DNA of 64,000 nt from Euzebya pacifica (lineage in GTDB: Bacteria > Actinomycetota > Nitriliruptoria > Euzebyales > Euzebyaceae): positions 2,299,910 to 2,363,909 of the forward strand of contig NZ_CP031165.1 of assembly GCF_003344865.1 (NCBI RefSeq), in the 5' to 3' direction. Shown here one piece after another: positions 15,509 to 55,883 of the stretch. The notes under the pieces were generated by a model that worked only from the letters and a program-made list of their open reading frames with translations, was not told the origin of the DNA and made no database searches. A program made the position numbers and the translations under genes. Each line of letters starts with the position of its first letter. The stretch's first letter is position 1.

Positions 15509-15536
15509 TTGACAGTGGGCAGAAGATTGCTAGGTT
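15509..15536 (+). promoter_or_regulatory. Promoter candidate for the 15604 operon
   Basis: A perfect -35 box TTGACA (15509-15514) is followed after 16 bp by TAGGTT (15531-15536), which keeps the TA and final T of the -10 consensus. Transcription would start near 15543, inside the first palindrome, so a bound repressor would block initiation. Confidence 0.5.
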
Positions 15537-15551
15537 GTTTGTTGACAAGCA
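15536..15551. promoter_or_regulatory. Operator A, TGTTTGTTGACAAGCA
   Basis: 16-bp imperfect palindrome (TGTTTG-TTGA-CAAGCA) just downstream of the -10 candidate. Same sequence class as sites at 15556, 24157 and 42588. Its centre is exactly 20 bp from operator B, about two helical turns, so two dimers could bind one face of DNA. Confidence 0.7.
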
Positions 15552-15555
15552 AATT

Positions 15556-15571
15556 TGTTTGTTGGCAAACA
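15556..15571. promoter_or_regulatory. Operator B, TGTTTGTTGGCAAACA
   Basis: Perfect inverted repeat TGTTTG-TTGG-CAAACA, the most symmetric member of the four-site family. It lies between operator A and the GTG start at 15604. Confidence 0.7.
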
Positions 15572-15603
15572 GAAGATCACCGATTGAGGGAGGGCCTGGA
15601 ATC

Positions 15604-17187: not shown

Positions 17188-17936
17188 AGCTCGATGGCAA
17201 AGTCGCATTCGTGACCGGGGCGGGGCGGGGGATCGGGGAGGCCATAGCAATGCGTTTGGCCCAAGACGGTGCCACGGTGTACGCCGCAGACATGGATGAG
17301 GCCACGGCGAAGCAGACGGCCAAGCACATCCTGGCCGACGGACTCAAGGCCAAGGCCGTGACCCTGGACGTCACCGATCTGGAGGCGGTCAAGGACGCGA
17401 TCGCGACAGTGGCGGAGGCCGAGGGCGGGCTCGACGTACTGGTCAACAACGCCGGTTGGGATCAACTCGAGCCATTCGTGCGCTCGGAACCGGCGACGTG
17501 GCAGAAGGTCATCGCCATCAATTACCTCGGGGTCATCCACACCACACACAGCGCCCTTCCGGGGATGCTGGAGAGGGGCTCGGGTCGGATCGTGAACGTC
17601 GGTTCCGACGCTGGTCGCGTGGGATCGAAGGGCGAGGCGGTGTACTCGGGGGCAAAGGGTGCCGTGATCGCGTTCAGCAAGACCGTCGCCCGAGAGGTCG
17701 CGCGAGATGGCGTTGGGGTCAACGTGGTCTGCCCGGGGCCGACCGAGACCCCGTTGGTTATGGAGCAGGTGGCTGACAACGAGCGACTGCTCAAGGCGTT
17801 GGAGCGGTCGATTCCGTTGGGTCGCATGGGTCGTCCCGAAGAGGTCGCGCACGCCGTCGCCTTCCTCGCCTCGGAGGAGGCCGGGTTCATTACCGGCCAG
17901 ACGCTGAGTGTCTCTGGTGGGCTGACGATGTCGTGA
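17184..17936 (+). CDS. Short-chain dehydrogenase/reductase, hydroxyacyl-CoA dehydrogenase-like
   Basis: NAD(P)-dependent SDR of 250 aa with a complete classical set: TGAGRGIG (11-18), NNAG (88-91), S141, and YSGAK with Y154 and K158. The C-terminus VSGGLTMS is also typical. It overlaps the ligase stop by ATGA. Between a ligase and two crotonases it most likely oxidises or reduces a ring or side-chain hydroxyacyl-CoA, as BadH does for 2-hydroxycyclohexanecarboxyl-CoA or IpdF does in steroid catabolism. By-eye similarity does not decide which. Confidence 0.87.
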   Translation: MKLDGKVAFVTGAGRGIGEAIAMRLAQDGATVYAADMDEATAKQTAKHILADGLKAKAVTLDVTDLEAVKDAIATVAEAEGGLDVLVNNAGWDQLEPFVRSEPATWQKVIAINYLGVIHTTHSALPGMLERGSGRIVNVGSDAGRVGSKGEAVYSGAKGAVIAFSKTVAREVARDGVGVNVVCPGPTETPLVMEQVADNERLLKALERSIPLGRMGRPEEVAHAVAFLASEEAGFITGQTLSVSGGLTMS

Positions 17937-18003
17937 GGCCCCGCACCACGTTCTCGCCAGAGTGGCCCGCCTGTTGGCGGCCATGTGAATGTCAGGTATC
18001 TCA

Positions 18004-18789
18004 ATGACCGCCGTGACGATCAGCCTCGAGCGACAAGGGTCCACCGCGGTGGTGTGGCTGAACCGTCCCGAGGTGCACAATGCGATCAGCTACCAGCTTG
18101 CCGACGATCTCGTCGAGGCCATGGAGGATCTCGCCGCGGACGACACGACTCATGCAGTCGTATTGGCCGGCAAGGGGCGCTCATTCTGCGCGGGCGCAGA
18201 TCTCGCGGAGGCCCGTCAAGTGGACGGAGTCGCGGCCGCGGTCGAGTTCCTGCGGCGAATGCGCCGGGTCTTCGACGCGGTCGCGGGATCGCCGTTGCCC
18301 ACGGTTGCGGCGGTGCACGGCATAGCGCTTGGCGGGGGTTGTGAGCTGGCAGCGGCCTGTGACTTCCGACTCATGGACCAGGATGCCAAGATCGGACTCC
18401 CCGAGCTGAAGGTTGGCGCACTCCCGGCCGGGGGTGGGATGTCACGGCTCGTGTCGTTGATCGGCCTCCCACATGCGAAACAAATGGTGCTCACCGCCGA
18501 ACCCGTTTCGGCCGTGAGGGCCAAGGAGATGGGGCTCGCCACCGACGTCATCGATTCCGGGGTGGGGGTGGCCGCCGCGGCGGTGGCGTTCTCCGAGAGG
18601 TTTGCGTCGCTGCCTCCCGCCATCGTCCGAATGGCAAAGAGCGCCCTGAACACCAACGCTCGCACGGATGCCATGGCCGCGGCCGAGATCGAGTTGATGT
18701 CGACCGCTGCGGCCTTCGGCACCAAGGACCGCGCGGAGGGCATGAGCGCCTTCCTCGAGAAGCGCCGCCCATTGTTCAACGGAAACTGA
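18004..18789 (+). CDS. Enoyl-CoA hydratase/isomerase (crotonase family) 1
   Basis: Crotonase-fold protein, 261 aa. Oxyanion-hole segments are GKGRSFCAGADLAEA and HGIALGGGCELAAACD; the segment GLPELKVGALPAGGGM carries a Glu at the position used by hydratases. ATG 18004 fits the usual N-terminus; ATG 17989 is an alternative start. A small hairpin (CCGCC-TGTT-GGCGG, 17967-17980) lies between the SDR stop and this gene. Expected role is hydration or isomerisation of an enoyl-CoA, or hydrolytic ring opening as in other crotonases of cyclic-acid pathways. Confidence 0.88.
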   Translation: MTAVTISLERQGSTAVVWLNRPEVHNAISYQLADDLVEAMEDLAADDTTHAVVLAGKGRSFCAGADLAEARQVDGVAAAVEFLRRMRRVFDAVAGSPLPTVAAVHGIALGGGCELAAACDFRLMDQDAKIGLPELKVGALPAGGGMSRLVSLIGLPHAKQMVLTAEPVSAVRAKEMGLATDVIDSGVGVAAAAVAFSERFASLPPAIVRMAKSALNTNARTDAMAAAEIELMSTAAAFGTKDRAEGMSAFLEKRRPLFNGN

Positions 18790-18801
18790 CCTGGAGGAGC
18801 C

Positions 18802-19776
18802 ATGAAGGACGACAGAGCCGAAATCCACACCTGGGAGTATCAGGAGTTCCGAAGCGTAGTGCGCGAGGGCGAGATCCTGTACGGGGTTGACGAAGAGCGT
18901 CATATTGCGACCATCACGTTCAACGCCCCGGAGCGCCTGAATGCGGTCTCGATCGCTGGCTTCGATTACGTCAGCACCTTGATCAAGCGGGCCGAGCGGG
19001 ACGAACGCGTCCGGGTCATCGTCCTGCGAGGGGAGGGGCCGTGCTTCGGAACCGGGGGAGATGCCTCGGAGCTTGGGTACTACATCGGCTACGGCACGGG
19101 AAAGGACGGGTCGCCGCGTCGTCCCAGTCAGCGACGCCGTATGGTCCCCGACCGAGATGTGTTGTTCGGCAACCTCGGGGTCGAGCAGGTCATCGGCCGG
19201 TGCTTGAAGCCGACCGTCGCCAGCGTTCATGGGTACTGCTACGGCGGGCACCTTCAGATGGCGTTGTCGTGCGATGTGCTCATCGCCGCCGATGACGCAT
19301 TCTTCGTGCATCCCGCGTGGCGCTACCTCGGTCCGATCTTCAACATGAACCTCTTGGTGGAGAAGGTCGGTGTGACCAAGGCCAAGGACATGCTGTTGAC
19401 CGCTCGCCCCGTGGGGGCCGACGAAGCAGAGGCCTGTGGCTTGGCGACCAAGACCGTGCCCGTTGACGAACTGGAGCAATGGACCGCGGACTACTGCACC
19501 GCCATAACCACCCTGCCCAGCGACGGCCTGTCCATGGGCAAGGCGATGATGGAGATGGTTCTGGACGCGCGCGGCGCTCCAGAGGGTTCGCTCGCGGGTT
19601 GGATCGGTCACGGGTGGATCAGCAACCTGCAGTTCGCTGAGGACGAGTGGAACTTCTTGAAGGCCCGTCGTGACGAGGGGCTCACTCAAGCCCTCCAGCG
19701 ACGCGACGAGATGGTGCCCGAGTACTTCCGAATGGCCCGACACCGCGGTCGGTCGCGTGGGAAGGACAACGGGTGA
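18802..19776 (+). CDS. Enoyl-CoA hydratase/hydrolase (crotonase family) 2, extended form
   Basis: Second crotonase, 324 aa, longer than the usual 250-270. An N-terminal extension (about 35 residues before VDEERHIATITFN) and a basic, Arg-rich C-terminus (MARHRGRSRGKDNG) flank the fold. Oxyanion segments are GEGPCFGTGGDASELG and HGYCYGGHLQMALSCD. The usual hydratase Glu segment reads FVHPAWRYLGP, lacking the PEL motif, so it may be a ring-opening C-C hydrolase rather than a hydratase (inference). GGAGGAG precedes ATG 18802; the next gene overlaps by GTGA. Confidence 0.85.
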   Translation: MKDDRAEIHTWEYQEFRSVVREGEILYGVDEERHIATITFNAPERLNAVSIAGFDYVSTLIKRAERDERVRVIVLRGEGPCFGTGGDASELGYYIGYGTGKDGSPRRPSQRRRMVPDRDVLFGNLGVEQVIGRCLKPTVASVHGYCYGGHLQMALSCDVLIAADDAFFVHPAWRYLGPIFNMNLLVEKVGVTKAKDMLLTARPVGADEAEACGLATKTVPVDELEQWTADYCTAITTLPSDGLSMGKAMMEMVLDARGAPEGSLAGWIGHGWISNLQFAEDEWNFLKARRDEGLTQALQRRDEMVPEYFRMARHRGRSRGKDNG

Positions 19777-20786
19777 GCGTCAAGGTCGGGGTGTCCATCT
19801 TCGGACACTTGTTCCCCATGTCCGCCCTGGTGGACCTGGGCGTGTCGGCCGAGGCAGCGGGCGCCGAATCCGTGTGGGTGGGTGAGTACCACCGCAATCC
19901 TTGGGTGCTTGGTTCGCTGATCGCGAGTCGAACGCAGCGGGTCACCATCGGCACCTCCATCGCGCTGGCATTCGTGAGGTCCCCACTGGTGACCGCCTTG
20001 GCGGCCCTCGACCTTGACGAGGCGGCCGAGCAGCGGTTCGTGCTCGGACTGGGGCCACAAGTCCGGCGAGGGATCGAGAACTGGCACGGTATGGCCTACC
20101 CGGACAAACCAGCCCGTCGCATGGCCGAGTTCGTCGAAGCGACCAGGACATCGATGCGCACGCACCTGCCGGATCCGCAGACGTACGTGGGTGACTACCA
20201 CCGCATTGACCTCACCGGTTTCAACCGTCACCCCGCACCGGCGCGCGAGGTCCCAGTGCACGTTGCGGCGGTTAGGGAGGGAATGATCAGGATGGCGCAG
20301 CAGGTCGCCGATGGCGTGATCGGCCACATCTTCTGGTCCCGTCGGTACGTGCAGGACGTCGTCACGCCGTTGCTGGAGGGCGTCCGGGACGACTTCGAGA
20401 GGTCCGTTACCGTGCTGTGCTCGGTGCAGGAGGACCCCGGCCTCGCCAGAATCGATGCCAAGCGGACCCTGGCGCACTACGCCAGCACGCGCACCTATCG
20501 CGACATCCTCGCAGCAGACGGATTTGGCTCGGCGGCCGATGACTGCAGGGACGCCGTACGCGCCGCTGATCACGAGGCGATGGTCCGGGCCGTCCCCGAT
20601 GCAATGCTTGACACCTACGCGATCGCGGGTCCACCAGACGAACTCCACGATCGTCTGGCGGCGGTCGCGGGACACATGGATCGCGCGATTCTCGTCCCCG
20701 CCTACATCGGGACGCCGATGGCGCGGGCTGAACAGGCCTACACCACGATGTTCGCGGCGCTGCGATCACGAGGTGGCACGACATGA
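19773..20786 (+). CDS. LLM-class (luciferase-like) F420- or FMN-dependent oxidoreductase
   Basis: Bacterial-luciferase-fold protein, 337 aa. It has the N-terminal strand KVGVSIFGHLFPM, the ESVWVGEYH segment, TIGTSIALAF and the VLGLGPQVRRG loop typical of the family. Actinobacterial members often use F420H2; others are FMN monooxygenases. The GTG at 19773 overlaps the preceding stop (GTGA) and the next gene overlaps this one by ATGA, so it belongs to the ligase-crotonase operon. Its step in the pathway, reduction of a C=C bond or an oxygenation, cannot be told. A second LLM protein is encoded at 33917-34864 in the co-regulated minus operon. Confidence 0.87.
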   Translation: MSVKVGVSIFGHLFPMSALVDLGVSAEAAGAESVWVGEYHRNPWVLGSLIASRTQRVTIGTSIALAFVRSPLVTALAALDLDEAAEQRFVLGLGPQVRRGIENWHGMAYPDKPARRMAEFVEATRTSMRTHLPDPQTYVGDYHRIDLTGFNRHPAPAREVPVHVAAVREGMIRMAQQVADGVIGHIFWSRRYVQDVVTPLLEGVRDDFERSVTVLCSVQEDPGLARIDAKRTLAHYASTRTYRDILAADGFGSAADDCRDAVRAADHEAMVRAVPDAMLDTYAIAGPPDELHDRLAAVAGHMDRAILVPAYIGTPMARAEQAYTTMFAALRSRGGTT

Positions 20787-21916
20787 GCTCCTCAACTCAC
20801 GCGCGTCTGCGCCAGGAGGCCATCGCGTTCTTTGAGGCCGAAGTCTCGGCCAGCGTCCGGTCGGAACTGGCCGAGCTCGGCGCGGAGTTCGTTCCCCGCT
20901 TCCACCGCAAGATGGGCGAGGCGGGATGGATCGGCCTCCAGTGGCCCGAGGCCTACGGTGGCCGGGCGCAAGGGCATGTGGCTGGAGCGATTCTGCAGGA
21001 GGAGGCCGCCCTGGCCGGGGCTCCGGTACTGGCCTCCAACATCAATGCGATCATCGGTAGCACGCTGATCGTCCACGCGGCTGAGGAACTCAAGCGCCGA
21101 GTCCTCCCCCGACTGATCAGCGGCGAGACCGTGCTTTGCCTGGGCTACAGCGAACCCGAAGCCGGTAGTGACTTGGCGTCGCTGCGAAGCCGCGCTGAGC
21201 GCTCTGGTGACGGCTGGGTGATCAATGGGGCAAAGACTTGGACCAGCTTGGCTCACGTGGCTGATCACATGTTCTGTCTCGCCCGAACCAATCCTGATGC
21301 GCCACGACACCGTGGTCTCACCATGTTCTTGGTCCCGATGGCCGACGTCGCCGTGGAGCCCATCTGGACCCTCGGTGATTTCCGGACCAACGCCACGTTC
21401 CTCGACGGCATCGAGGTGGACGACCGGGACCGGGTCGGGCCAGTCGATCACGGGTGGGACGTGGTGATGACGGCCCTGGACTTCGAGCGGGCGGGCACCG
21501 CCCGAGTCGGGGAGGCCAAGCGGTTGCTTTCGCAGTGCTTCCTGGCCGCGCGTTCACGCGGCGGGTTCTCCGCCGTCGAGCGGGACCGGACTGCCGAGCT
21601 GTGGTCCCAAGTGCTGGTGGTGGAGTCGTTGGCCTATGAAGTCGCGCGTCGACAAGAGGCGGGAGAACCCGTGACAAAGATGTCATCCATTGCCAAGGTC
21701 GCCGGCACCGAGTTGGTCCAGCGCGTGGCGCTCGCCGTCATGGAAATGTTGGGTTCGGACGCGCTGCTGTCACGGGGCGCACCGGGGGCCGTCGCGGACG
21801 GTGAGGTGGAGGTCGCGTACCGAAACGCCGTGCGGTACACGGTCACCGCGGGCACCAACGAGATCCAGCGCAACATCATCGCCCAACGGGGCCTCGGTCT
21901 GCCGAGGTCGTCATGA
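20783..21916 (+). CDS. Acyl-CoA dehydrogenase, candidate subunit of a heteromeric pair (1)
   Basis: FAD acyl-CoA dehydrogenase of 377 aa. Family marks include GYSEPEAGSDLASLRSRA, WTSLAHVADHMFCLARTN, and the C-terminal TAGTNEIQRNIIAQRGLGLP. It overlaps both neighbours by ATGA. The next gene is a shorter dehydrogenase-like protein, an arrangement known in actinobacterial steroid catabolism where adjacent FadE genes make alpha2beta2 enzymes. I propose the same here; the longer, GTNEIQR-containing chain would be one half. Confidence 0.9.
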   Translation: MSSSTHARLRQEAIAFFEAEVSASVRSELAELGAEFVPRFHRKMGEAGWIGLQWPEAYGGRAQGHVAGAILQEEAALAGAPVLASNINAIIGSTLIVHAAEELKRRVLPRLISGETVLCLGYSEPEAGSDLASLRSRAERSGDGWVINGAKTWTSLAHVADHMFCLARTNPDAPRHRGLTMFLVPMADVAVEPIWTLGDFRTNATFLDGIEVDDRDRVGPVDHGWDVVMTALDFERAGTARVGEAKRLLSQCFLAARSRGGFSAVERDRTAELWSQVLVVESLAYEVARRQEAGEPVTKMSSIAKVAGTELVQRVALAVMEMLGSDALLSRGAPGAVADGEVEVAYRNAVRYTVTAGTNEIQRNIIAQRGLGLPRSS

Positions 21917-22929
21917 CGGAGGATCATCGGTCCCCGGACCGCCAGATGCTGGTGGGCACGGTGGCGAGGCTGGTCGATGACGAGACCGACGAGACCGCCC
22001 TGCGCGCCGCTGAGACAAGCGGAACGGGGTGGATGCCCGCCCTCTGGCAGTCACTCGCGACTGCGGGATTCGTGGGCCTTGGCAGCAACGATGGGGCAGG
22101 TGGCGACCTGCTCGACGACGTCTTGGTGGCCACGGAAGTGGGTCGCTCGATGGCGCCGCTGCCGGCGGCGGAGTCCGGGGCCGCGCTCACGGTGATGACC
22201 GCGACTGGCCTCGCGCCGGGGCTGGTCGACGACGTCCGCGACGGGACCCGCCTCGTGGTGCCGCTCGTGGTCCCTGATCCCGAGTCCGCGGTGCTGGCTT
22301 CCCACGTGGTGCGCTTCGCAACCGCCGCCGACGCGATGCTATTGCTGTCGACCTCCACTAGTGAGGTGGCCGTGGTCGAACCGGACATGGTGGACACGGT
22401 GCAGGTGCAATCCATGGACCCGTTTCCCGTGGCTCGGGTGCGCCTGCGGGGGTTGCCGAGCATGGTGCGGGCCCCACAAGCGGTCGCACAGGGGACGGAG
22501 TTCCTGTGGTTGTTGCGAAGCGCCATTGCCGTAGGGGGCATGCGAGCGGCCCTCGACTACGCGGTTGAGTACGTGTCGGAGCGTCGCCAGTTCGGACGGT
22601 CCGTCGGATCGTTTCAAGCGGTGCAACACCGACTGGCCGATGCCGCCATTGACGCCGAGCTCGGGACGCATTCGGTCATGGACGCGGCAACTCGTCCCGC
22701 CGATGATCGTCGGCCGCAATCCGTCGCCGCCGTGCGGCACTGCTTACCCGCCTATCAGCGTGTCGCGGCAGCTACCTGCCAGGTTCTTGGCGGCTACGGG
22801 TTCAGCATGGAATACGCCGCGCAGCGCCACTTTCGCCTCGCGACCGCCCTGCGCTTGGGCACACCCCCCGCCGAGCCATCGCTGCTCATGGCTGATCTTC
22901 GGCGGCAAGCGACCAACCTCATTCGCTGA
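21913..22929 (+). CDS. Acyl-CoA dehydrogenase, candidate partner subunit of the pair (2)
   Basis: Acyl-CoA dehydrogenase fold, 338 aa, shorter than the usual about 380. The C-terminal LGGYGFSMEYAAQRHFR block and YVSERRQFGRSVGSFQAVQH are clear, but the GGTSEIQR tail motif is missing and the N-terminal region is diverged. Such lean members commonly pair with an adjacent canonical subunit. It begins with an ATGA overlap on the 20783 gene, consistent with co-translation and 1:1 assembly. Confidence 0.88.
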   Translation: MTEDHRSPDRQMLVGTVARLVDDETDETALRAAETSGTGWMPALWQSLATAGFVGLGSNDGAGGDLLDDVLVATEVGRSMAPLPAAESGAALTVMTATGLAPGLVDDVRDGTRLVVPLVVPDPESAVLASHVVRFATAADAMLLLSTSTSEVAVVEPDMVDTVQVQSMDPFPVARVRLRGLPSMVRAPQAVAQGTEFLWLLRSAIAVGGMRAALDYAVEYVSERRQFGRSVGSFQAVQHRLADAAIDAELGTHSVMDAATRPADDRRPQSVAAVRHCLPAYQRVAAATCQVLGGYGFSMEYAAQRHFRLATALRLGTPPAEPSLLMADLRRQATNLIR

Positions 22930-23004: not shown

Positions 23005-23907
23005 ATGGGTGATATTGCAGCACTCGACATAATGAACCACCCGACCGAGGCGGATCGCAGCCTCTGGGCGGACAAGTTCGACTACAAGGAGTTCCAGATC
23101 ATGACGCGGACGACGTTCCGTACGGTCTTCAAGGGCGTGGTCCCGGACCAGGAGACGTTGCGGAACTCGCCGGCCCTGCAAGGGCACGACTCGGTCCAAG
23201 ACCTTTTGTCGGAGATGGACCGCCTGGGCTACGACAAGGTCGTTATAACGGCGACGAAGATGTGGTCCCCCTACCACCACCGCGACTTCATCCTGAACTA
23301 CCCGGTGAGCTTGGTCGCCAAGATGGTGGAGGAGGGGAAGGGCCGCATCATCGGTGCCGCCAGCTACGATCCGTTTCGGATCAGTGACAGCCTCGCCGAA
23401 ATTGAGACGGCGGTCAGGGAGCACGACTTCCGCTACGTGTGGTTCCACCCCTTGTCATTCGGCTTGGAGCCCAACGACCGGCGCTTCTATCCGCTGTACG
23501 CCAAGTGTCAGGAGTTGGGGATTCCCGTTGGTCTGCAGGTCGGCCACTCCGCGGAAGTGCTGCCGAGCAACGGCGGGCGGCCGATGCTCGTTGACGACGT
23601 CGCGATCGAGTTCCCTGACCTCAAGATCAACCTTTCTCACACCGGTTGGCCGTGGGTGGACGAATGGTGCTCAATGCTGTGGCGCCACCCGAACGTCTAT
23701 GGGGACATTTCCGCGTACTTCCCGAGTAGCTTGGATCAGAACCTCGTGCGGTTCATGGACAGCTCTCGCGGGCGGCACAAAGTGCTCTTCGGCACCAACG
23801 GCCTCGGGCTGGAGCGTTGCAAGTCTGACTTCTTGGCCTTGGACATCAAGGACTCCACCAAGCAAATGGTTCTGCACGACAACGTCGCAGAGTTCCTCGG
23901 CCTCTAG
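23005..23907 (+). CDS. Amidohydrolase 2-like protein with incomplete metal site
   Basis: TIM-barrel amidohydrolase-2 relative of 300 aa. The usual N-terminal HxH is absent (the start reads LDIMNHPTEADRS) and the usual GTD near the end is GTNGLGLERCK. Two barrel histidines are kept (LQVGHSAEV, NLSHTGWPW), as is FHPLSFG. Some family members work with fewer metal ligands, but a changed chemistry or a non-metal hydratase/decarboxylase is possible. GAAGGA precedes ATG 23005, which follows the dehydrogenase pair after 75 bases with no obvious terminator, so it is likely in the same operon. Confidence 0.8.
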   Translation: MGDIAALDIMNHPTEADRSLWADKFDYKEFQIMTRTTFRTVFKGVVPDQETLRNSPALQGHDSVQDLLSEMDRLGYDKVVITATKMWSPYHHRDFILNYPVSLVAKMVEEGKGRIIGAASYDPFRISDSLAEIETAVREHDFRYVWFHPLSFGLEPNDRRFYPLYAKCQELGIPVGLQVGHSAEVLPSNGGRPMLVDDVAIEFPDLKINLSHTGWPWVDEWCSMLWRHPNVYGDISAYFPSSLDQNLVRFMDSSRGRHKVLFGTNGLGLERCKSDFLALDIKDSTKQMVLHDNVAEFLGL

Positions 23908-24172: not shown

Positions 24173-24238
24173 AACAGGGTGGATGTTGACTCACTCTTGA
24201 GCGCCGCCGTTCGGCGGAGATGGCATAAGGAGCCGAAA

Positions 24239-25465
24239 ATGCAGACGTGCGAGAAGACGTACAAACGACTGCCAGCTGCGCTGCTGGTCCTAGCAATGTT
24301 GCTGTCAGCCTGTGGCAATGCGGAGGAGTCCGTCGCCAGTGACGACGAGTCCGACGATCCGGCCATCGAGGCCCCGGCCCCGTCGGAGGACGAGGCGGAC
24401 GCTGACGCGGCAGCTGAGGAGCCGGTGGCGGAGGAACCCGAGGCGGAACCGGTCGAGCTGATCTACGCCAACTGCGGGACGATGCAGGCGGCCAACACCG
24501 CGCAGACCGCCATTCCGGAGATACTCGGGTTCTGGGAGGACGAGAACTTGGCCGTCGAGGAGGTCATCCTGGCAGGGTCCGGTGAATGCGTCCAGGCCCT
24601 GGACGCGGGCAACATCGACGTCACCATTACGGCCACCCCGTCACTTGCGTCGCCGATTGCCCAGGGGGCCGACAACTTGGTTGCCATCGGCGCATACGTG
24701 GTCGGCAACATCTACACGCCGTTCGTTCCGGCAGAAAGCCCGATTGAGGAGCCGGCCGACTTCGATGGCTCGACGATCGGCGTTGGCTCGCTCGAGGCGA
24801 GTTCGGTACCGATGTTCGTGGCGTTGCTCAACTCGGTCGGATTGGACCGTGACTCCGTTGACTTCGTGCCGGTGGGATTCAGTCCCGGGGAGGTATCGGA
24901 GTTCCTTCGTGCCGGCCGCATCGACGCGTACGCGCAGCATGACGGCGCCCAGGCCGCGCTGCAAGAAGTGATGGACATGCGAGCAGTGACCAACGAGACG
25001 TTCGAGAACGTGGGCTTCCACGTGATCTTCGCGACCAGGCGCGACGTGCTGGAGGAGAAGCGCGAGGCCCTCGTCGGTCTCATGCGAGGCATCGCCAAGG
25101 GCGTGGTTGTTGCTCGTGAGAACCCCGAGGCAGGGGTGGCCATGCTGTACCAGCAGTGGCCGGAGAACCGTCCGACCGGAGTCGCGGACGAGGACTTGAT
25201 CTCCAGTGGGCTGTCTGGCCTAGTGGCCCGCCTAGAAAACATTCAGCCCGTCGACGGTCTGCTCTTCAATGGCACCCGGGAACAGATGAGCAGCCACTTC
25301 GAGGTGCTGATCGCCGCGGAGACCATGCCTGCCCTGGAGGAGCCGATGGACTCCTTCATCGATCGCTTCTGGGATGGTTCCTTGTTGGAGGACACCAACG
25401 ACTTCGACGCCGATCAAATTGCCGAGCAGGCCCGTAGCCTTGTCGTGGACGACTTCCTGCAGTGA
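24239..25465 (+). CDS. ABC transporter substrate-binding lipoprotein, NitT/TauT family (1)
   Basis: Extracellular lipid-anchored binding protein, 408 aa. Signal peptide with lipobox LLSAC, Cys25, then an acidic linker (about residues 30-80, rich in Asp, Glu, Ala). The mature part shows TMQAANTAQTAIPEILGFW and LDAGNIDVTIT, typical of SsuA/NitT proteins. ATG 24239 has AAGGAG upstream. It is paralogous to the 29610 product (both share LMRG and VVARENPEAGVAMLYQ). No ABC core adjoins it; the only one nearby is 30758-32505, so two binding proteins probably feed one translocator. Confidence 0.9.
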   Translation: MQTCEKTYKRLPAALLVLAMLLSACGNAEESVASDDESDDPAIEAPAPSEDEADADAAAEEPVAEEPEAEPVELIYANCGTMQAANTAQTAIPEILGFWEDENLAVEEVILAGSGECVQALDAGNIDVTITATPSLASPIAQGADNLVAIGAYVVGNIYTPFVPAESPIEEPADFDGSTIGVGSLEASSVPMFVALLNSVGLDRDSVDFVPVGFSPGEVSEFLRAGRIDAYAQHDGAQAALQEVMDMRAVTNETFENVGFHVIFATRRDVLEEKREALVGLMRGIAKGVVVARENPEAGVAMLYQQWPENRPTGVADEDLISSGLSGLVARLENIQPVDGLLFNGTREQMSSHFEVLIAAETMPALEEPMDSFIDRFWDGSLLEDTNDFDADQIAEQARSLVVDDFLQ

Positions 25466-25493: not shown

Positions 25494-26762
25494 ATGAGTA
25501 CCACGCCCCGATCGACTGGATCGGTGGACTTCGGCGCTGTTCTGTCCACGACTCAGGGAATCAACGACCCCTACCCCGTGTACCACCAGATGCGGGAGCG
25601 CCACCCCGTGGTGTGGAGCGAGGAGCTTCAGACCTGGTTGGTCACCAGTCACGAGTTGGTCCGTGAGGTCTACCGCGACCATGAGGCCTTTGGCACGGTC
25701 GGGACCACAGCCGGCTCGAGCATGGACGCCCTCAGCGCCGACGTCCGGGCCCAAGTGCCGACGCTCGTCGCGGTGGAAGAAGCTGAGGTCCTGAACGTCG
25801 CGCCTCCCGAGGTTCACGCAACGCACCGCGCGCTGGTCAGTAGGCCGCTGTCAGTCCGGCGCCTGGAGGAGCGTCGGGACTGGGTGGAGCAAATGTGTGC
25901 AGCGGCGACGGATCGCGTGGTGGGGAGAACGTCCATCGACGTGGTCGCCGACTACGCCACCCCAGTGGCCTATGAGGCCATTCTGGAGATCTTTGGTTCC
26001 CCCCGTGAGCACCTCCCGGTGTATCAACGAACCAGCGACGCGTTCTTCACCTTCATCTCCCACGGGGGTGGAACGCGTGAGCACGCCCTGGCGTACGACG
26101 CGGCGTTGCAGGCGTTCCGTGACGCCCTCGAGGACGTGTACGCCGACCAGCGTCAAAGGGCCGGCGACGACACGCTCATTGCCTCGCTCCTGGAGGAGGT
26201 GGGATCGGATGGCGGGTTCGGGGACTTCGAGCTATTCGTGCTGCTGCGGAAGTTCTTCTCGGCCGGGCATGAGAATTTGATCCACACCGTCGCAGTGGCG
26301 GTGATGGAGCTGCTGCGAAGCCCTGACCAGCTCGCCGAGGTTCGCGACTCCCCGAACCTTGCCGCCGATGCCTACGCGGAGGCGGTGCGGTTCGAGGCAC
26401 CCAACCAGGGGAACGCGCGCATCGTGACCCGGGACATGGACTTTCACGGATGCCACCTTCGAGCGGGCGACCGGGTCATGAACATCAAAGCGGCCGCGGA
26501 CCGCGACCCAGTTGTGTGGACCGAACCTGACAAATTCGACCTGCACCGCGACCAGCACGAACCCGATGGCGGCAGTGTGGCATTCGGTCAGGGAATCCAC
26601 TTCTGCGTCGGTGCGGGCCTGGCACGACTGGTCGGCCCAACCGCCATCAACGCCCTGCTCCGGGCACTCCCCGATCTGGAGTTGCCGGAGGACTTCGAGC
26701 CGAACTGGCAGCAGGTCCCCCTGCGCCGGAAGCTGGCCGACCTGAAGCTCCCCGCTGCATGA
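25494..26762 (+). CDS. Cytochrome P450
   Basis: Soluble bacterial P450, 422 aa. The heme loop FGQGIHFCVGAGLAR has its Cys ligand near 371; the ExxR motif is EAVR; the I-helix shows SAGHENLIHT, where the usual AGxxT has E-N in place of E/D-T. ATG 25494 lies 28 bases after the binding-protein stop. The next gene, an alcohol dehydrogenase, overlaps by ATGA, which suggests hydroxylation followed by oxidation of the new alcohol. No ferredoxin gene is adjacent. Confidence 0.93.
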   Translation: MSTTPRSTGSVDFGAVLSTTQGINDPYPVYHQMRERHPVVWSEELQTWLVTSHELVREVYRDHEAFGTVGTTAGSSMDALSADVRAQVPTLVAVEEAEVLNVAPPEVHATHRALVSRPLSVRRLEERRDWVEQMCAAATDRVVGRTSIDVVADYATPVAYEAILEIFGSPREHLPVYQRTSDAFFTFISHGGGTREHALAYDAALQAFRDALEDVYADQRQRAGDDTLIASLLEEVGSDGGFGDFELFVLLRKFFSAGHENLIHTVAVAVMELLRSPDQLAEVRDSPNLAADAYAEAVRFEAPNQGNARIVTRDMDFHGCHLRAGDRVMNIKAAADRDPVVWTEPDKFDLHRDQHEPDGGSVAFGQGIHFCVGAGLARLVGPTAINALLRALPDLELPEDFEPNWQQVPLRRKLADLKLPAA

Positions 26763-27859
26763 GTGACATGAACACACGGGCAACCGTCATGATCCAGGTG
26801 GGCCCTGGACGCCTTGAACGGCGGGATGTCGATGTCCCGCCGCTGGACGTCGGGGGGCTCCTCCGGATCGAGGCCAGCGGGCTGTGCGGCACCGACCTCG
26901 AGCAGTTCCTTGACGAGGCGGGGACCAGGCGCTACCCGCTGGTGCCCGGTCATGAGGCCGTTGGATCCGTCGTGGCACTGGCCGAGGAGGCAGCGATGAC
27001 CTGGCCCGTGGCTCTCGGCGATCGAGTTGTTGTTGAGCCGTTGCTGCAATGCGGTCGCTGCCGCACCTGTTGCGGTGGCGACGGGAGAATGTGTGTGAAG
27101 CGGTCCGAACTGGGGGCCTACTCGACGATCCCGTGGTCACGTTCGCCGGGACTGTGGGGGAGTTGGGGGACCCATATGTATCTCGATCCGTCGTGTGTGA
27201 TGCACCCGATTCCGGACGACCTTCCCGTCGAGCTGGCCGTAATGACGAACTCATTGGCCAACGCCGTCGAGTGGTCGGTCCAGACTCCAGGGACACGTCT
27301 GGGCGACCATGTCGTGCTGCTCGGCTGTGGCCAACGCGGATTGATGTCGGTTGTGGCGGCCAAGGCTGCCGGGGCCAAGACCGTGGTGGTCACGGGACTC
27401 AGCCACGACCAGCACAAACTGAAGCTCGCCCGCCAACTGGGGGCCGATGCCGCAGTCGATGTCCAGAACGAGGCGCTGCGACCGATCGTGGCGGATGTCA
27501 CTGGCGGGGACATGGCCGATGTGGTCGTGGACCTCACCCCAATGGACGTGGGTTCATTGGGGGTCGCTGTCGAGGTCGCGGCCGATGGTGGGTGCCTTGT
27601 GATCGCGGGACTCAAGAGCGGACGGCCAACCCAGGTTGATACCGACGTTCTCGTGCGGCGGGGACTGAGCCTGCGCACCGGGCTTTCGGCGAGATCCGCG
27701 GCGTTCACCCAAGCGGTGTCGCTCCTGGACGGCCGACGCGAAGCGTTCTCCCGCTTGCACACCCACCGATTCCCGCTGGACAACGTGGTTGGTGCGCTCG
27801 ACGCCCTGCGCGGCAACGCTCCCACGCCGGCCATCAGCGTCGTGGTGGACACCAAGTGA
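26759..27859 (+). CDS. Zinc-dependent alcohol dehydrogenase (MDR family), paralogue of the 3644 gene
   Basis: Medium-chain dehydrogenase of 366 aa. Catalytic zinc motif SGLCGTDLEQF, then GHEAVGSVV; structural zinc cysteines in CGRCRTCCGGDGRMC; Rossmann motif LGCGQRGLM. ATG 26759 overlaps the P450 stop. It likely oxidises the alcohol made by the P450 to an aldehyde or ketone before the ThDP enzyme downstream. The same gene type closes the first operon (3644-4756). Confidence 0.9.
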   Translation: MSDMNTRATVMIQVGPGRLERRDVDVPPLDVGGLLRIEASGLCGTDLEQFLDEAGTRRYPLVPGHEAVGSVVALAEEAAMTWPVALGDRVVVEPLLQCGRCRTCCGGDGRMCVKRSELGAYSTIPWSRSPGLWGSWGTHMYLDPSCVMHPIPDDLPVELAVMTNSLANAVEWSVQTPGTRLGDHVVLLGCGQRGLMSVVAAKAAGAKTVVVTGLSHDQHKLKLARQLGADAAVDVQNEALRPIVADVTGGDMADVVVDLTPMDVGSLGVAVEVAADGGCLVIAGLKSGRPTQVDTDVLVRRGLSLRTGLSARSAAFTQAVSLLDGRREAFSRLHTHRFPLDNVVGALDALRGNAPTPAISVVVDTK

Positions 27860-27890
27860 GAAGCATGTCAACGACGAGGAGAGGTTCAGA

Positions 27891-29519
27891 ATGTTAGGGC
27901 ACGCACTCATCGCCGAAGTCCTGTTCCAGCAGGGAGTGGACACGGTCTTCGGGGTCGTCGGCCACGGCAACATGGCGATGCTGTCGGAGCTGGTGGCCAC
28001 GCACGGGGTGCACTTCGTTGCCGCCGCCCGGGAGGATGGGGCCGTGTCGATGGCCGACGGGTACGGCAGGGCGACGGGTCGCGTCGCATGCACGACGACC
28101 ACGTTCGGGCCGGGGCTCACCAACACGTTGACGGGGTTAACGGAGGCGACGCGGAACGGTACGCCGATGGTTGTCCTGACCGGCGCCACTCCACCTGGTG
28201 CCTGGCACCGCCAGTCACTGAACGAGACGCTGGTCGCCCGGGCCAGTGGTGCGGGCCACCAACTCGTTCATGGGTTGGACACGATCCGACGCGATGTGAC
28301 CGAAGCGGTGCATCGCGCCAAGGAGGAGTGCCGACCGATCATCCTCGCCGCGAGCGAGGAGGTGCAGCACGGCCGCACAGAGGGATTGGAACAAGTTCCA
28401 GCCCGCGTCATGGCCCGCCACGGACACACGACCCGGCCCGACGCGGACTCGTTGGATCGCGCCCTTGGGATCATCGCCACTGCTCGTCGTCCGCTCCTGC
28501 TGGCCGGGCGGGGTGCGGTGCGGTCTGATGCCGGTTCCGCCCTGCGGTCGCTCGCGGAACGATTGGGTGCGCCCACGGCGACCACGCTCCTCAGCCGAGG
28601 CTTCCTCGCTGACGATCCATGTCATGTCGGCACGATGGGCTCGATGTCGTCGCAGGCGGGCGCGGCGGTGATTGCCGAGGCCGACTGCATCGTGGGTTTC
28701 GGAGCCAGCCTGAACCCCGACACGACGTCGAGAGGAACAATGGTGGATGGCAAGCGGGTGGTGCAGATCGAGTTGGACCCCTCACGTGTTTCGCGCCACC
28801 ATGATCCAGATGCCGTGGTCATCGGCGATGCTCGGTTGGTCGCTGAGGAGATGGTGGCCTTGCTCACTGATCTCGGTGCCGAGCCGGCCACGTTCCGCTC
28901 CGACGGCCTAGCGGCACGCTTGCGGGATCATCGATTCGAGGATGAGTTCACCGATTGCAGCGACGGGGAGCACGTTGATCTGCGCACCGCTGTGCTGGCG
29001 TTGGACCGGGCACTTCCGGATCAACGGAGCGTCAGCATCGACGCGGGTCGGTTCATGGTCGCCCCCTCGACGTACATGAGGGTGCAGGACCCGTCGCATC
29101 TGCTGTATCCACTCGCGTTCGGTTCCGTCGGTCTCGGCATGGCGGCGGCGATCGGGGCAGCGGTGGCCGCCCCTGACCGTCCTTCCGTTGCGATCATGGG
29201 TGACGGGGGCTTCATGATGAGCCTGCAGGAGTTCCACACGGCGGTCCGCAACGACTTGGACCTGATCGTGATGGTCCTCAATGACTCGACCTACGGGGCG
29301 GAGTACCACACGCTGAAACGGCAGGGCCATGAGGTGTCCATTTCCACCAATGACTGGCCCGATTTCGTGTCCACCGCAAAGGCATTGGGCGGTACAGGTC
29401 ATCACGTGAGGAACCTCGATGACCTCGCGTCGTTGGCCACGGTGCTGGACGCTCGAACCGGACCGGTGCTCATTGATGTCACGGTTGACCCCGAAGTGCT
29501 CGTCGGGTACGCGGAGTAG
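27891..29519 (+). CDS. Thiamine diphosphate-dependent enzyme, acetolactate synthase/benzoylformate decarboxylase-like
   Basis: ThDP enzyme of 542 aa with three domains: N-terminal PYR domain with the activating Glu E48 in AAREDGAVSMADGYGR, a central Rossmann-like domain, and a C-terminal PP domain with GDGG (437-440) through N464 (VMVLNDSTYG). The family cleaves or forms C-C bonds next to a carbonyl: 2-oxoacid decarboxylation, carboligation, or 1,2-dione hydrolysis. Its place after P450 and alcohol dehydrogenase suggests it acts on a newly formed ketone or 2-oxoacid. ATG 27891 follows GAGGAGAGG; the frame further left overlaps the dehydrogenase. Confidence 0.88.
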   Translation: MLGHALIAEVLFQQGVDTVFGVVGHGNMAMLSELVATHGVHFVAAAREDGAVSMADGYGRATGRVACTTTTFGPGLTNTLTGLTEATRNGTPMVVLTGATPPGAWHRQSLNETLVARASGAGHQLVHGLDTIRRDVTEAVHRAKEECRPIILAASEEVQHGRTEGLEQVPARVMARHGHTTRPDADSLDRALGIIATARRPLLLAGRGAVRSDAGSALRSLAERLGAPTATTLLSRGFLADDPCHVGTMGSMSSQAGAAVIAEADCIVGFGASLNPDTTSRGTMVDGKRVVQIELDPSRVSRHHDPDAVVIGDARLVAEEMVALLTDLGAEPATFRSDGLAARLRDHRFEDEFTDCSDGEHVDLRTAVLALDRALPDQRSVSIDAGRFMVAPSTYMRVQDPSHLLYPLAFGSVGLGMAAAIGAAVAAPDRPSVAIMGDGGFMMSLQEFHTAVRNDLDLIVMVLNDSTYGAEYHTLKRQGHEVSISTNDWPDFVSTAKALGGTGHHVRNLDDLASLATVLDARTGPVLIDVTVDPEVLVGYAE

Positions 29520-29609
29520 CCCCACCGCGAACTCTTCCAATCTTGCTATTTGACAACTAATCCTGGCCTCCGGAGATCCGGGGCCAAGCTGAAAGGACGC
29601 GTGAGTCGA

Positions 29610-30746
29610 ATGAAGTCCAAGTGGATCTGGTGTGGAATGTTGGTATTCGCGCTACTGGCGGGGGCCTGCGGTGACGGTTCCGGCGACGAGGTGGATGACG
29701 GTGCGTCCTCCGATGGCGGCACCGATGAGTCCCTAGTCGAGGAGGTGACCTTGCGTTATGCCCAGGCCGGGACCATGACGCCGACCAACACCGCACAAGT
29801 CGCCATCCCAGAGGTACTTGGCTACTGGGCAGAGGAAGGCGTCGTCGCTGATCAATCGGTGATGCAGGGTTCTGGTGAGGTGGTGCAGGCACTGGACGCC
29901 GGCAACATCGACGTCACGATCACCACCACCGCACAAGCCGCTTCCGCCATCGCGCAGGGTTCACCACTGAGGATCATTGCGTCCTACGTCAACGGCAACA
30001 TCTGGACGCCATTCGTCCCCGAGGACAGCCCGATTCAGGAGGTGGAGGACCTCGCCGGCACCACCGTGGGTGTGCCGAACCTGGAATCCGGAGCGGTGCC
30101 GACCTTCGGGGCACTCCTGGGTACCGTCGGCCTGGGTCTGGACGACGTCGACCTGGTGGCCGCTGGCACGGGCCCCGAGGTCGTGGCGCTGCTCGAATCC
30201 GGCCAGATCGACGTCTACGCGGCCTCAGACGGGCACCAGGCTCTCGTGCAGCGCGAGAAGGACATGCGCGGCATCACCAACGACGCCTTCGGGGAAATCG
30301 GCTTCCATGTCGTGATGGTGGCTCGAGACGACGTCGTCGAGGAACACCGCACCGCCCTCGTTGGCCTGATGAGAGGGCTGTTCAAGGGCATCGTCGTCGC
30401 GCGTGAGAACCCAGAAGCGGGGGTGGCCATGCTGTACCAGGTCTTCCCGGACAACCAGCCGACCGGAATGTCTGACGAGGAGGTCATTGAGGCAGGTCTC
30501 CCAGGGCTACTGGCGAGGCTGGCCAACATTCAGCCGGTGGACGGCCTGGAGGGCAATACGACTGATGAACAGATCAGGGCCCACTTGGAGTTCCTGATCG
30601 CGAACGGGGATCTCGAGACCGATGATCTCGACGGCCTCGTCGCGCAGATGTGGGACCCGAGCTTGCTGGAGGAGGCGAACGATTTCGATCGTGACGCCAT
30701 CGTGGAGCAGGCAGCCACCCTTGAATGGCAGGCCTACCTGCCGTAG
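29610..30746 (+). CDS. ABC transporter substrate-binding lipoprotein, NitT/TauT family (2)
   Basis: Lipid-anchored binding protein, 378 aa, lipobox LLAGAC with Cys20, a short acidic linker, then TMTPTNTAQVAIPEVLGYW and LDAGNIDVTIT. Closely related to the 24239 product along its length. ATG 29610 has GAAAGGA 12 bases upstream; GTG 29601 in frame is an alternative. The ATPase and permease follow directly, so this is the cognate binding protein of that importer. Confidence 0.9.
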   Translation: MKSKWIWCGMLVFALLAGACGDGSGDEVDDGASSDGGTDESLVEEVTLRYAQAGTMTPTNTAQVAIPEVLGYWAEEGVVADQSVMQGSGEVVQALDAGNIDVTITTTAQAASAIAQGSPLRIIASYVNGNIWTPFVPEDSPIQEVEDLAGTTVGVPNLESGAVPTFGALLGTVGLGLDDVDLVAAGTGPEVVALLESGQIDVYAASDGHQALVQREKDMRGITNDAFGEIGFHVVMVARDDVVEEHRTALVGLMRGLFKGIVVARENPEAGVAMLYQVFPDNQPTGMSDEEVIEAGLPGLLARLANIQPVDGLEGNTTDEQIRAHLEFLIANGDLETDDLDGLVAQMWDPSLLEEANDFDRDAIVEQAATLEWQAYLP

Positions 30747-30757
30747 GAAGTCGTGCG

Positions 30758-31627
30758 ATGAATGACGTGCTGACGCAGGACCATGAGCCCACTCGCCGAG
30801 TGAGAAGGGACCCGATGACCGGCCAGACATCACCGACAGGACAGGACGCGCTGGTGCGCGTCAGCGGTCTTGGCAAGACGTACCGCAGCACCACAGGTGT
30901 GGAGACAACCGCATTGACTGGGGTTGATTTTGGAGTCGCCGCCGGCGAGTTCGTGAGTATCGTCGGCCCGAGTGGATGCGGTAAGACCACGCTGATGAAA
31001 ATCACCGCTGGGCTGATCTCCCCAACCGTGGGGACCGTGGACTACCGCGGGACGGGAGGCCCGGTGCGGCCGGGCACGTACGGAATGGTGTTCCAGGGGC
31101 CGGCGCTCCTTCCTTGGCACACCGTGGAGGAGAACATCATGTTGCCGGCCCGGATCCTCGGACTCGACATGGCGTGGGCGCGGGACAGGGTTCCCGACCT
31201 GCTGGAATTGGTTCGGTTGGGGGGGCAGGGCACCAAGTATCCCCGCGAGTTGAGCGGGGGGATGCAACAACGCGTCGCCATCGCGCGTGCGCTGCTGCCG
31301 GACCCGGAGGTGTTGTTCATGGACGAACCCTTCGGTGCCCTGGACGCGATGACCCGCGAGGAGCTCAACATGAGCCTTCAGGCGGTCCACCTCGCCGAGC
31401 GGAAGACGGTGGTGTTCGTGACGCATTCGATCTCCGAGGCCGTCCTGTTGTCAGATCGCGTCATCGTGATGTCGGCCCGTCCGGGAGCAGTCATCGACCA
31501 GGTAGCCATACCTTCGGACCGACCCAGGGATATGGTCAATCTTGGTGAACCACGTTTCCATGAGGCACAGGTGAGGATCCGTGAGGGACTCTCCGGGGCG
31601 GTCGACAGCCAGAGGAGCAACCCATGA
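30758..31627 (+). CDS. ABC transporter ATP-binding protein, NitT/TauT class
   Basis: ATPase of the importer, 289 aa. Walker A GPSGCGKTT, Q-loop FQGPALLPW, signature LSGGMQQRV, Walker B VLFMDEPFGALD, and switch His in VTHS. ATG 30758 follows TAGGAAG; a start at 30815 (after AGAAGGGA) would drop an unconserved N-terminal tail and is possible. It overlaps the permease by ATGA and follows binding protein 29610 by 11 bases. Confidence 0.92.
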   Translation: MNDVLTQDHEPTRRVRRDPMTGQTSPTGQDALVRVSGLGKTYRSTTGVETTALTGVDFGVAAGEFVSIVGPSGCGKTTLMKITAGLISPTVGTVDYRGTGGPVRPGTYGMVFQGPALLPWHTVEENIMLPARILGLDMAWARDRVPDLLELVRLGGQGTKYPRELSGGMQQRVAIARALLPDPEVLFMDEPFGALDAMTREELNMSLQAVHLAERKTVVFVTHSISEAVLLSDRVIVMSARPGAVIDQVAIPSDRPRDMVNLGEPRFHEAQVRIREGLSGAVDSQRSNP

Positions 31628-32505
31628 CGACCGACTCACAGGTCACGACGGCCTCCGCGACCACGGACGCGTCGAATGGGCCCGCCACTTCTGTGGCCCC
31701 GACCAACGCTCCAGGCACGGTCCGAGGGGTCTGGCTTCGCTACGGGGACCAACTCATCCTTGCCTTGGTGATCATTGGCTCCCTGGTAATGGCCCAGATC
31801 GCGGCCACCAACGGGTGGGTGTCGCAGTTCATCCTCCCCAAGCCGACCGACGTCTGGGCCTCCCTGGTGGACGGCTTCACTTCCGGCGTCTACTGGCCCC
31901 ACATCTCCTCGACACTGCTCGGGACGGGACTTGGCTTCGCGTTTGCGGCGGTCGGGGCGATGGCCCTCGCCGCCCTGATGGTCACGATGGAACGGGTCGA
32001 GAACGTGGTGCTCCCCCTCGTCGTGGGATTCCAGTCGCTCCCAAAGATTGCGGTGGCCCCCATCGTCATCCTGTGGCTTGGTTTCGACCTCTCGGGCAAG
32101 GTGGTGATCGTCGGCTTCGTCTGCTTCTTCCCGATTCTGCTCAACACGCTGGCGGGACTGAAGATCCGGGACCGGGAACAGCTGGAGCTGCTGCAGTCGT
32201 TGGGCGCCACCAAACTGCAGATGTTTCGCTACCTCCGGTTGCCGGGAGCGGTCCCCTACCTCTTCGCCGGTTTCCACGTGGGGATCATCTTCGCCCTGCT
32301 CGGGGCCGTGGTCGCGGAGTTCGTGGGCAGTCGTGACGGACTGGGACGCTTCCTGCTGTCGCAGCGAGCCGCCTTCAACGTCGGTGGCGTCTATGCCGTC
32401 CTCGTCATTCTGATGGTCATGGGTCTGGTGTTCCGTTGGATCATGCTGTTGATCGAGCGACGGTTCGCCTTCTGGGCCGAGGATGTCTCGCACCGGAACG
32501 TGTGA
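31624..32505 (+). CDS. ABC transporter permease, NitT/TauT class
   Basis: Membrane subunit, 293 aa. A hydrophilic N-terminal tail of about 40 residues precedes the membrane helices; the ATPase-docking loop is LGATKLQMFRYLRLPGAVPY. It completes the importer with 30758 and binding protein 29610, and probably also serves binding protein 24239. Last gene of the plus-strand block; it converges on the membrane transporter at 32539. Confidence 0.92.
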   Translation: MTTDSQVTTASATTDASNGPATSVAPTNAPGTVRGVWLRYGDQLILALVIIGSLVMAQIAATNGWVSQFILPKPTDVWASLVDGFTSGVYWPHISSTLLGTGLGFAFAAVGAMALAALMVTMERVENVVLPLVVGFQSLPKIAVAPIVILWLGFDLSGKVVIVGFVCFFPILLNTLAGLKIRDREQLELLQSLGATKLQMFRYLRLPGAVPYLFAGFHVGIIFALLGAVVAEFVGSRDGLGRFLLSQRAAFNVGGVYAVLVILMVMGLVFRWIMLLIERRFAFWAEDVSHRNV

Positions 32506-32512: not shown

Positions 32513-32539
32513 ATCCCTTGAGTCAAGGTGGTCAGGGAT
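32513..32539. terminator. Hairpin between convergent operons
   Basis: ATCCCT (32513-32518) and AGGGAT (32534-32539) enclose the smaller palindrome CTTGAGTCAAG (32517-32527). It fills the 33-bp gap between two convergent stops and touches the minus-strand stop codon. Alternative foldings are possible. Confidence 0.45.
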
Positions 32540-33915: not shown

Positions 33916-33916
33916 C

Positions 33917-42734: not shown

Positions 42735-43043
42735 ATGTCGAGGAGCCGCCCGCCATACGCGCCTGACCTGCGTGAGCAGCTGATCGCCTTGGTGAAGGCC
42801 GGTCGCACGCCGGAAGAGCTGTCACGCGACTACGAGCCGACTGCCCAGACGATCCGCAACTGGATCGCTGCCGATGCGGCCGAGGACGACCCGGATCGGC
42901 TCGGCCGGGCTGAGCGTGATGAGCTCGTCCAGCTCCGCCGGGAGAACCGGATTCTGCGCGAGGAACGCGAGATCCTGCGAAAAGCCGCGGCCTGGTTCGC
43001 TGCGGAGACCGACGCGACGCCCCGGAGGCGTTCGCGTTCATGA
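42735..43043 (+). CDS. IS3-family transposase OrfA
   Basis: 102-aa DNA-binding subunit. N-terminal helix-turn-helix (APDLREQLIALVKAGRTPEE) followed by a leucine-zipper-like coil (ELVQLRRENRILREEREIL) that mediates multimerisation in the family. ATG 42735 has AGGATGGAG upstream. OrfB begins with an ATGA overlap at its stop; in IS3 elements a frameshift in the overlap normally makes an OrfAB fusion transposase. Confidence 0.9.
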   Translation: MSRSRPPYAPDLREQLIALVKAGRTPEELSRDYEPTAQTIRNWIAADAAEDDPDRLGRAERDELVQLRRENRILREEREILRKAAAWFAAETDATPRRRSRS

Positions 43044-47101: not shown

Positions 47102-47102
47102 G

Positions 47103-48644: not shown

Positions 48645-48718
48645 GTGGAACGCGGTTCGCGCGTTCATTGTCCAAAGGTCAGATAATCACCGTCCCTACG
48701 TGAGAGGAGCCGAGGTAG

Positions 48719-52624: not shown

Positions 52625-52635
52625 CGCCTTAGTCG

Positions 52636-52668
52636 TCCGGGCGGCCCGTCTTCGGCGGGCCGCCCGGA
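52636..52668 (+). terminator. Strong hairpin between binding protein and permease
   Basis: Perfect 13-bp arms TCCGGGCGGCCCG (52636-52648) and CGGGCCGCCCGGA (52656-52668). The loop contains TTCG closed by C-G, a very stable tetraloop. No T tract. It likely gives partial termination or protects the upstream mRNA rather than ending the operon. Confidence 0.65.
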
Positions 52669-55870: not shown

Positions 55871-55883
55871 CCAGGGGCTCGTC

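Follow-up and report, generated by a model that had tools for sequence, protein, structure and literature searches.

A candidate thiamine diphosphate C–C lyase encoded behind a cytochrome P450 and an alcohol dehydrogenase in Euzebya pacifica

What does a thiamine diphosphate (ThDP) enzyme do when its gene is packed directly behind those of a cytochrome P450 and an alcohol dehydrogenase (ADH)? The question is raised by three genes of Euzebya pacifica that lie between positions 25494 and 29519 of a 64,000-nucleotide stretch of contig NZ_CP031165.1 (hereafter the window), which an original prediction made from the letters alone had described as overlapping or closely spaced and as suggesting hydroxylation, oxidation and then the making or breaking of a C–C bond. 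Evaluating this locus, we found the three genes intact and in tandem on the plus strand, with a 4-base overlap between the P450 gene (25494..26762, 422 amino acids) and the ADH gene (26759..27859, 366 amino acids) and a 31-base gap between the latter and the ThDP gene (27891..29519, 542 amino acids), such that the claimed spacing is borne out, and the three enzyme identities and their order likewise fit the sequence. Our preferred interpretation is a catabolic uptake-and-attack operon in which import, hydroxylation and oxidation would be followed by ThDP-dependent C–C cleavage, a reading that we consider plausible and hold at somewhat less than even confidence.

All three products possess the signatures of their families. 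The P450 matches Pfam p450 (70 bits) and carries the heme motif FGQGIHFCVG, the ExxR motif as EAVR and the I-helix motif AGHEN, whereas its best NCBIfam model reaches 155 bits against a cut-off of 500, and no close relative was found in the searches made. The ADH is a zinc-dependent medium-chain enzyme (Pfam ADH_N, ADH_zinc_N; motifs CGTD, GHE, CxxCxxCx7C and GxGxxG), and the third protein, a predicted ThDP-dependent C–C lyase or decarboxylase, contains the N, M and C TPP_enzyme domains of Pfam (106–111 bits) and Glu58, the cofactor-activating glutamate of a ThDP enzyme. Because all three frames are whole and their family motifs are present, we take the trio to lie beyond chance. Although the open ThDP frame reaches back to 27789 (TTG), the start of the gene is probably 27891, since this is the sole ATG among the early start codons seen and is preceded by a ribosome-site-like GGAGAGG; residue numbers used here are counted from 27861, and subtracting 10 gives the numbering from the ATG (Glu481 = 471).

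The best NCBIfam model for the ThDP enzyme, an acetolactate synthase, scores 265.5 bits, about half its curated cut-off of 509. In a tree of 56 ThDP proteins the window protein fell in a group of 23 (support 100/99), to which neither the four IolD sequences nor IlvI, PoxB and Gcl of E. coli belong; ten near-duplicate or partial rows were left out of the tree, among them L013, L015 and L016, in which the clade motifs are also present. These motifs are G-x-x-N at residues 34–37 and (N)DxxYGAE at 474–481. Glu481 is kept in 23/23 members, which occur in Actinomycetota and Alphaproteobacteria and of which the other 22 share 34–46% identity with the window protein (the closest, from Frankia, 45–46%). 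Residue 118 is Gln in the window protein and in 17/22 other members (Phe in 5/22), while residue 35 is Asp in 16/22, Ser in 5/22 and Gly in 1/22 and residue 82 is His in 11/22 and Gln in 11/22, positions at which the window protein carries His and Phe, respectively. In the seven annotated plasmid records opened, clade members are named only ‘thiamine pyrophosphate-binding protein’, and neither a characterised member nor an account of the clade or the trio was found among the matches listed and the excerpts read in a search of open-access literature; a whole clade thus carries a pyruvate decarboxylase-type acid residue, yet no reaction for it was found in that literature. The same genome holds two more clade paralogues (C1:4832523 and C1:91308; L002 and L003), with 34–38% identity to the window protein.

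Comparison with known ThDP enzymes turns on Glu481. It aligns with E493 of actinobacterial 2-hydroxyacyl-CoA lyase (AcHACL) and E473 of pyruvate decarboxylase via the acetolactate-synthase valine, a placement that runs through IlvI and L004 (a separate gene of the same genome, grouping with E. coli IlvI in the tree) in an alignment from which AcHACL, cyclohexane-1,2-dione hydrolase (CDH) and benzoylformate decarboxylase are absent. For this position Table 1 of PMC13327070 gives valine in acetolactate synthases and in alpha-hydroxy-beta-ketoacid (HKA) synthase, leucine in benzoylformate decarboxylase and asparagine in CDH, and the same source gives glutamate in pyruvate decarboxylase, AcHACL and sulfoacetaldehyde acetyltransferase. 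Because the window protein has Glu481 at this diagnostic residue, the active site that a standard acetolactate synthase would show, which we looked for as the pattern that would undo the original prediction, is absent (valine would be expected there), and both precedents that had been proposed, CDH and benzoylformate decarboxylase, differ as well. On sequence grounds, then, the enzyme is not an ordinary acetolactate synthase, and the earlier interpretation as a whole is partly supported.

The pyruvate decarboxylases are matched in some residues and not in others. Asp28 and Glu477 are conserved in them and not in acetolactate synthases, according to an excerpt of PMC4701669. With pyruvate and indolepyruvate decarboxylases the window protein shares the carbanion-protonating glutamate (E473/E477 type, here Glu481) and the catalytic glutamate of the Glu51 type, and a residue-by-residue alignment sets the Asp35 of 16/22 other clade members opposite Asp28 of the yeast pyruvate decarboxylase. 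The window protein itself departs from them at two sites, with His35 in place of Asp28 and Gln118 in place of the His that pyruvate decarboxylases have at the AcHACL Gln128 position, and its overall similarity to them is low. Three further candidates were rejected: benzoylformate decarboxylase, whose Leu461 and Leu110 are replaced by Glu481 and Gln118; sulfoacetaldehyde acetyltransferase, whose Xsc model (TIGR03457) scores 235 bits against a cut-off of 676; and IolD, which has the GHGN string in common with the window protein but whose model TIGR04377 reaches 125 of 715 bits in the main match and whose four sequences are separated in the tree.

Structure prediction (AlphaFold2, 15 alignment rows) yielded a model with a mean predicted local distance difference test score (pLDDT) of 87.4 and a predicted template modelling score (pTM) of 0.89, for which the Foldseek/VIA matches revealed the general pyruvate-oxidase/acetohydroxyacid-synthase fold. 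Structural Z scores were 39.6 for glyoxylate carboligase, 38.4 for acetohydroxyacid synthase and HKA synthase and 37.7 for CDH (4d5g), so the predicted model points to a common fold and does not pick a function. Acetohydroxyacid and HKA synthases (CsmA, BbmA) resemble the window protein in this fold and in about 24–28% identity in structural alignments, and differ in their valine at the diagnostic position and in the best acetolactate-synthase model standing at half its cut-off.

From these observations we propose a pathway in which an NMT1-type importer with two binding proteins would bring in an organic acid, probably cyclic, that the P450 would hydroxylate, after which the zinc ADH would oxidise the new hydroxyl to a carbonyl adjoining the bond to be cut. 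ThDP would add to that carbonyl and the adjacent C–C bond would break without oxidation, with Glu481 protonating the C2alpha carbanion, an aldehyde or acid being released and the products passing to the neighbouring acyl-CoA genes. Our first choice for the last step would be decarboxylation of a 2-oxo acid, by which a side chain would be shortened (CH2-COOH to CHOH-COOH to CO-COOH to CHO), favoured by the pyruvate decarboxylase-type glutamate; our second, which would apply to a ring carbon and is favoured by His35, would be the splitting of an acyloin or a 1,2-dione. Alpha-oxidation followed by decarboxylation is the logic of the mandelate route, and in ChcA/ChcB cyclohexanecarboxylate degradation a P450 and a dehydrogenase act on a cyclic acid ahead of an aromatisation that is not known to involve a ThDP enzyme; the proposed route resembles that front end in its hydroxylation and dehydrogenation and differs in the zinc type of its ADH and in its ThDP enzyme. 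The operon reading, under which the genes would be co-transcribed, is supported by the tight packing, the paralogous binding-protein genes around the trio, Glu481 in all 23 clade members, the correspondence of clade Asp35 with Asp28, Gln118, a partly similar actinobacterial locus (L091, below) and the acyl-CoA neighbours. Few ThDP enzymes that cut C–C bonds are involved in catabolism, and they are useful as biocatalysts; here the P450, dehydrogenase and importer would supply a substrate-making context for one member of the clade.

Several observations weigh against this operon reading. His35 and Phe82 together are unlike all 22 other clade members, so the chemistry of the clade may not carry over to the window protein, and the nearest solved protein by sequence is CsmA (161.5 bits, phmmer), an HKA synthase and thus an enzyme that joins carbon chains instead of splitting them. 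Scanning the window with a simple motif brought up no evident ferredoxin to serve the P450 (the single match was implausible), and its electron donors may lie elsewhere. Relatives of the ADH adjoin ring-hydroxylating dioxygenase genes at two loci (L088, L090), such that the ADH could use a dihydrodiol and not the P450 product. A P450 gene together with a related ADH gene stood beside the ThDP gene in 0/17 neighbourhoods compared by tblastn and 0/3 read from annotation, a clade ThDP gene was found in 0/8 ADH neighbourhoods (L087–L094), and genome G198 has its ADH relative and its clade ThDP gene on separate contigs. The search for the same trio that the original prediction had called for therefore came back empty in the 17 + 3 ThDP and 8 ADH neighbourhoods examined.

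The tblastn comparison with the window proteins covered L008–L014, L052–L055 and L095–L100 (L099 and L100 being from the same genome), and the annotation reading covered L066–L068, with L069 carrying no annotation; L015–L017 stood outside the comparison, and the 4.6-kb loci L047–L051, L002 and L003 do not count towards the 17, with L095–L100 representing wider stretches around six of these latter seven genes (all but L050). The nearest approaches were a P450 gene about 4 kb from the ThDP gene on the other strand in L008 (26% identity) and, in L096, a weak ADH match (28%) at a distance of about 2 kb from the ThDP gene. At the actinobacterial locus L091 (8997–18348), two ADH relatives, an importer, an Amidohydro_2 enzyme and a ThDP enzyme lie all on one strand, with identities to the window importer of 27% (binding protein), 41% (ATPase) and 29% (permease); to the points against the operon reading belongs, however, that this ThDP enzyme is of another subfamily (26% identity) and lacks the glutamate. 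An importer with an NMT1 binding protein (Pfam) is also found in L090 near the ADH and ring-hydroxylating dioxygenase genes, and at least five neighbourhoods (L008, L054, L067, L095 and L100) contain acyl-CoA genes close to the clade member. In the neighbourhoods examined, then, the trio as such is not conserved as a module, but its components turn up again among comparable catabolic genes.

Genome-wide searches, whose counts include the genome itself, returned ThDP protein matches in 5/396 sampled genomes of the phylum (1e-105), 6/66 of the class (1e-95) and 2/30 of the order (1e-100), ADH matches in 7/396 phylum genomes (1e-60) and a P450 match in 1/396 (1e-70), namely the genome's own; since the phylum searches scored no more than 3–5 initial candidates in each genome, some relatives may have escaped them. 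Among plasmid records there were 20 matches to the ThDP protein (1e-60) and one each to the P450 and the ADH (both 1e-40), and a peptide-pattern scan across genome contigs gave 39 ThDP loci.

Other neighbours of clade genes were also seen. In L068 and L095 a putative cyclase gene (‘cyclase family’ annotation in the former, PF04199 in the latter) adjoins a clade ThDP gene, and the ThDP genes of both loci (that of L095 being L048) encode the residue pair Ser35/Gln82; cyclase and ThDP enzyme there are possibly a pair of hydrolase and arylglyoxylate decarboxylase. In L009 and L010 a large gene lies upstream of the ThDP gene, a sulfatase in L009, and the start of the L010 protein looks alike.

We then weighed other explanations, of which one holds that the ThDP enzyme is a CDH-like ring opener, with P450 and ADH making a ring acyloin or 1,2-dione from a cyclic acid that the enzyme opens hydrolytically. 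His35 is what draws the protein towards this precedent: carried over with the offset of the phmmer match (query 13 against CDH 6) it would fall on CDH His28, it occurs in 0/22 other clade members, and FGxxGH[G/A]N[M/L], searched for as a DNA pattern with CTG and TTG as the only Leu codons, matches 1/396 phylum genomes, the window's own. The same GHGN string occurs in 4/4 IolD rows, although these rows were picked from loci by that string. IolD also opens a cyclic dione. Likeness to the Azoarcus CDH (P0CH62) further extends to the fold, with CDH structures among the structural matches, and to the Gln116 type of residue, and the CDH variant H28A/N484A is mentioned in an excerpt of PMC12247030. 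Against these stand the structural match, whose first aligned residues (8 to 2) would place His35 on residue 29 instead of His28, the non-polar Phe82, a low identity of 22–23% in the structural alignment, the rank of CDH, which is level with that of many other family members, and Glu481 where CDH has Asn484 (a position assigned through the family alignment and not in CDH directly). On balance we judge CDH-like ring opening unlikely. A bolder version, that the clade is a ThDP lyase subfamily, defined by the two motifs given above, whose window member has swapped Asp (Ser, Gly) and His (Gln) for His35 and Phe82 and breaks open the ring of a dione or acyloin that its P450 and ADH supply, seems to us rather improbable; if true, rings would be opened aerobically by a ThDP enzyme after priming by a P450, with no need for Baeyer–Villiger or dioxygenase chemistry.

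We grant a probability as low as that of CDH-like ring opening to the three genes being chance neighbours from the assembly of an island, the P450 and ADH performing peripheral steps and the ThDP enzyme serving another pathway. The failure to find a conserved trio, a regional GC content below that of the genome and the mixed catabolic neighbourhoods in which ThDP and ADH relatives sit are all consistent with such an origin; the 4-base overlap, the short gaps and the paralogous binding-protein genes of one importer on both sides argue the other way. Still more doubtful is an AcHACL-type 2-hydroxyacyl-CoA lyase that would remove one carbon as formyl-CoA from a CoA ester supplied by the ligase encoded nearby: the residue pair Gln128/Glu493 is matched by Gln118 and Glu481 and acyl-CoA genes lie near clade members, but the sequences are far apart (phmmer 125 bits only, below CsmA and acetolactate synthases), and the ADH would be left without a role between hydroxylation and cleavage. 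An ordinary acetolactate synthase or other carboligase, for example an HKA synthase, is hardly credible even with CsmA and acetohydroxyacid synthases as the top PDB sequence matches and an acetolactate synthase as the best NCBIfam model, given a score about half of the cut-off, Glu in place of the Val of IlvI, L004 and HKA synthases, GHGN where IlvI has GGAV, and L004 already grouping with IlvI.

Returning to the operon reading, the trio is bracketed by two NMT1-type ATP-binding cassette (ABC) substrate-binding lipoprotein genes on the plus strand, SBP1 (24179..25465, Pfam NMT1 68 bits) and SBP2 (29550..30746, 72.5 bits), both with starts as in the open reading frame call (SBP1 has an in-frame ATG downstream, near 24239), whose products share 51% identity over 409 amino acids (blastp). 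By that call, 28 bases separate SBP1 from the P450 gene and 30 separate the ThDP gene from SBP2, behind which follow the importer ATPase (30725..31627, +, ABC_tran 106.6 bits) and permease (31624..32505, +, BPD_transp_1 96 bits). Scanning for operon signals gave 0 promoter-like sites (1.2 expected) and 6 terminator-like sites (4.7 expected), counts that are uninformative on operon structure. The GC content of the window is 0.646–0.683, against 0.697–0.719 in eight further segments of this genome (L002–L007, L099 and L100, the last two enclosing L002 and L003), which suggests an acquired island; the whole window (1–64000) is probably an acquired catabolic island, as far as composition indicates.

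Upstream on the plus strand lie genes for a CoA ligase, a BadH-like short-chain dehydrogenase/reductase, two enoyl-CoA hydratases, an LLM-class oxidoreductase and two acyl-CoA dehydrogenases (15535..22929, Pfam/NCBIfam), followed by an Amidohydrolase_2 family enzyme (23005..23907, +, Amidohydro_2 104.6 bits) that possibly shares the pathway of the trio; L008, L091 and, by annotation, L087 also have a member of its family in the vicinity of a ThDP enzyme or an ADH relative. The cyclic-acid route of the original prediction draws on the weak resemblance of these neighbours to BadH, cyclohexanecarboxylate-CoA ligase and PimC and finds no support in a trio conserved elsewhere among the neighbourhoods examined; since all of these pathway-specific names score below curated cut-offs, ‘cyclic acid’ is a lead and not a result.

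Downstream, at 45252–51359, two ring-hydroxylating dioxygenase alpha/beta pairs surround a CoA ligase and a LigB-type extradiol dioxygenase close to the 3-carboxyethylcatechol dioxygenase model (270 of 286 bits); alpha subunits and LigB were assigned by Pfam, and beta subunits by position and 36% mutual identity. A second NMT1-type importer set occupies 51407–59209, with binding proteins at 51407 and 57860, a permease-like gene at 52701 and an ATPase at 54872. On the minus strand, 34861–36545 encodes a two-subunit CoA-transferase-like pair, well below curated cut-offs, which could be IpdAB-like ring hydrolases, and 32539–33951 encodes a 470-amino-acid protein that, judged by eye, appears to span the membrane and that matched neither Pfam (at 0.001) nor NCBIfam (at 1e-20). 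Two frames at 42735–43888 resemble an IS3-type transposase pair, by eye from their translation starts.

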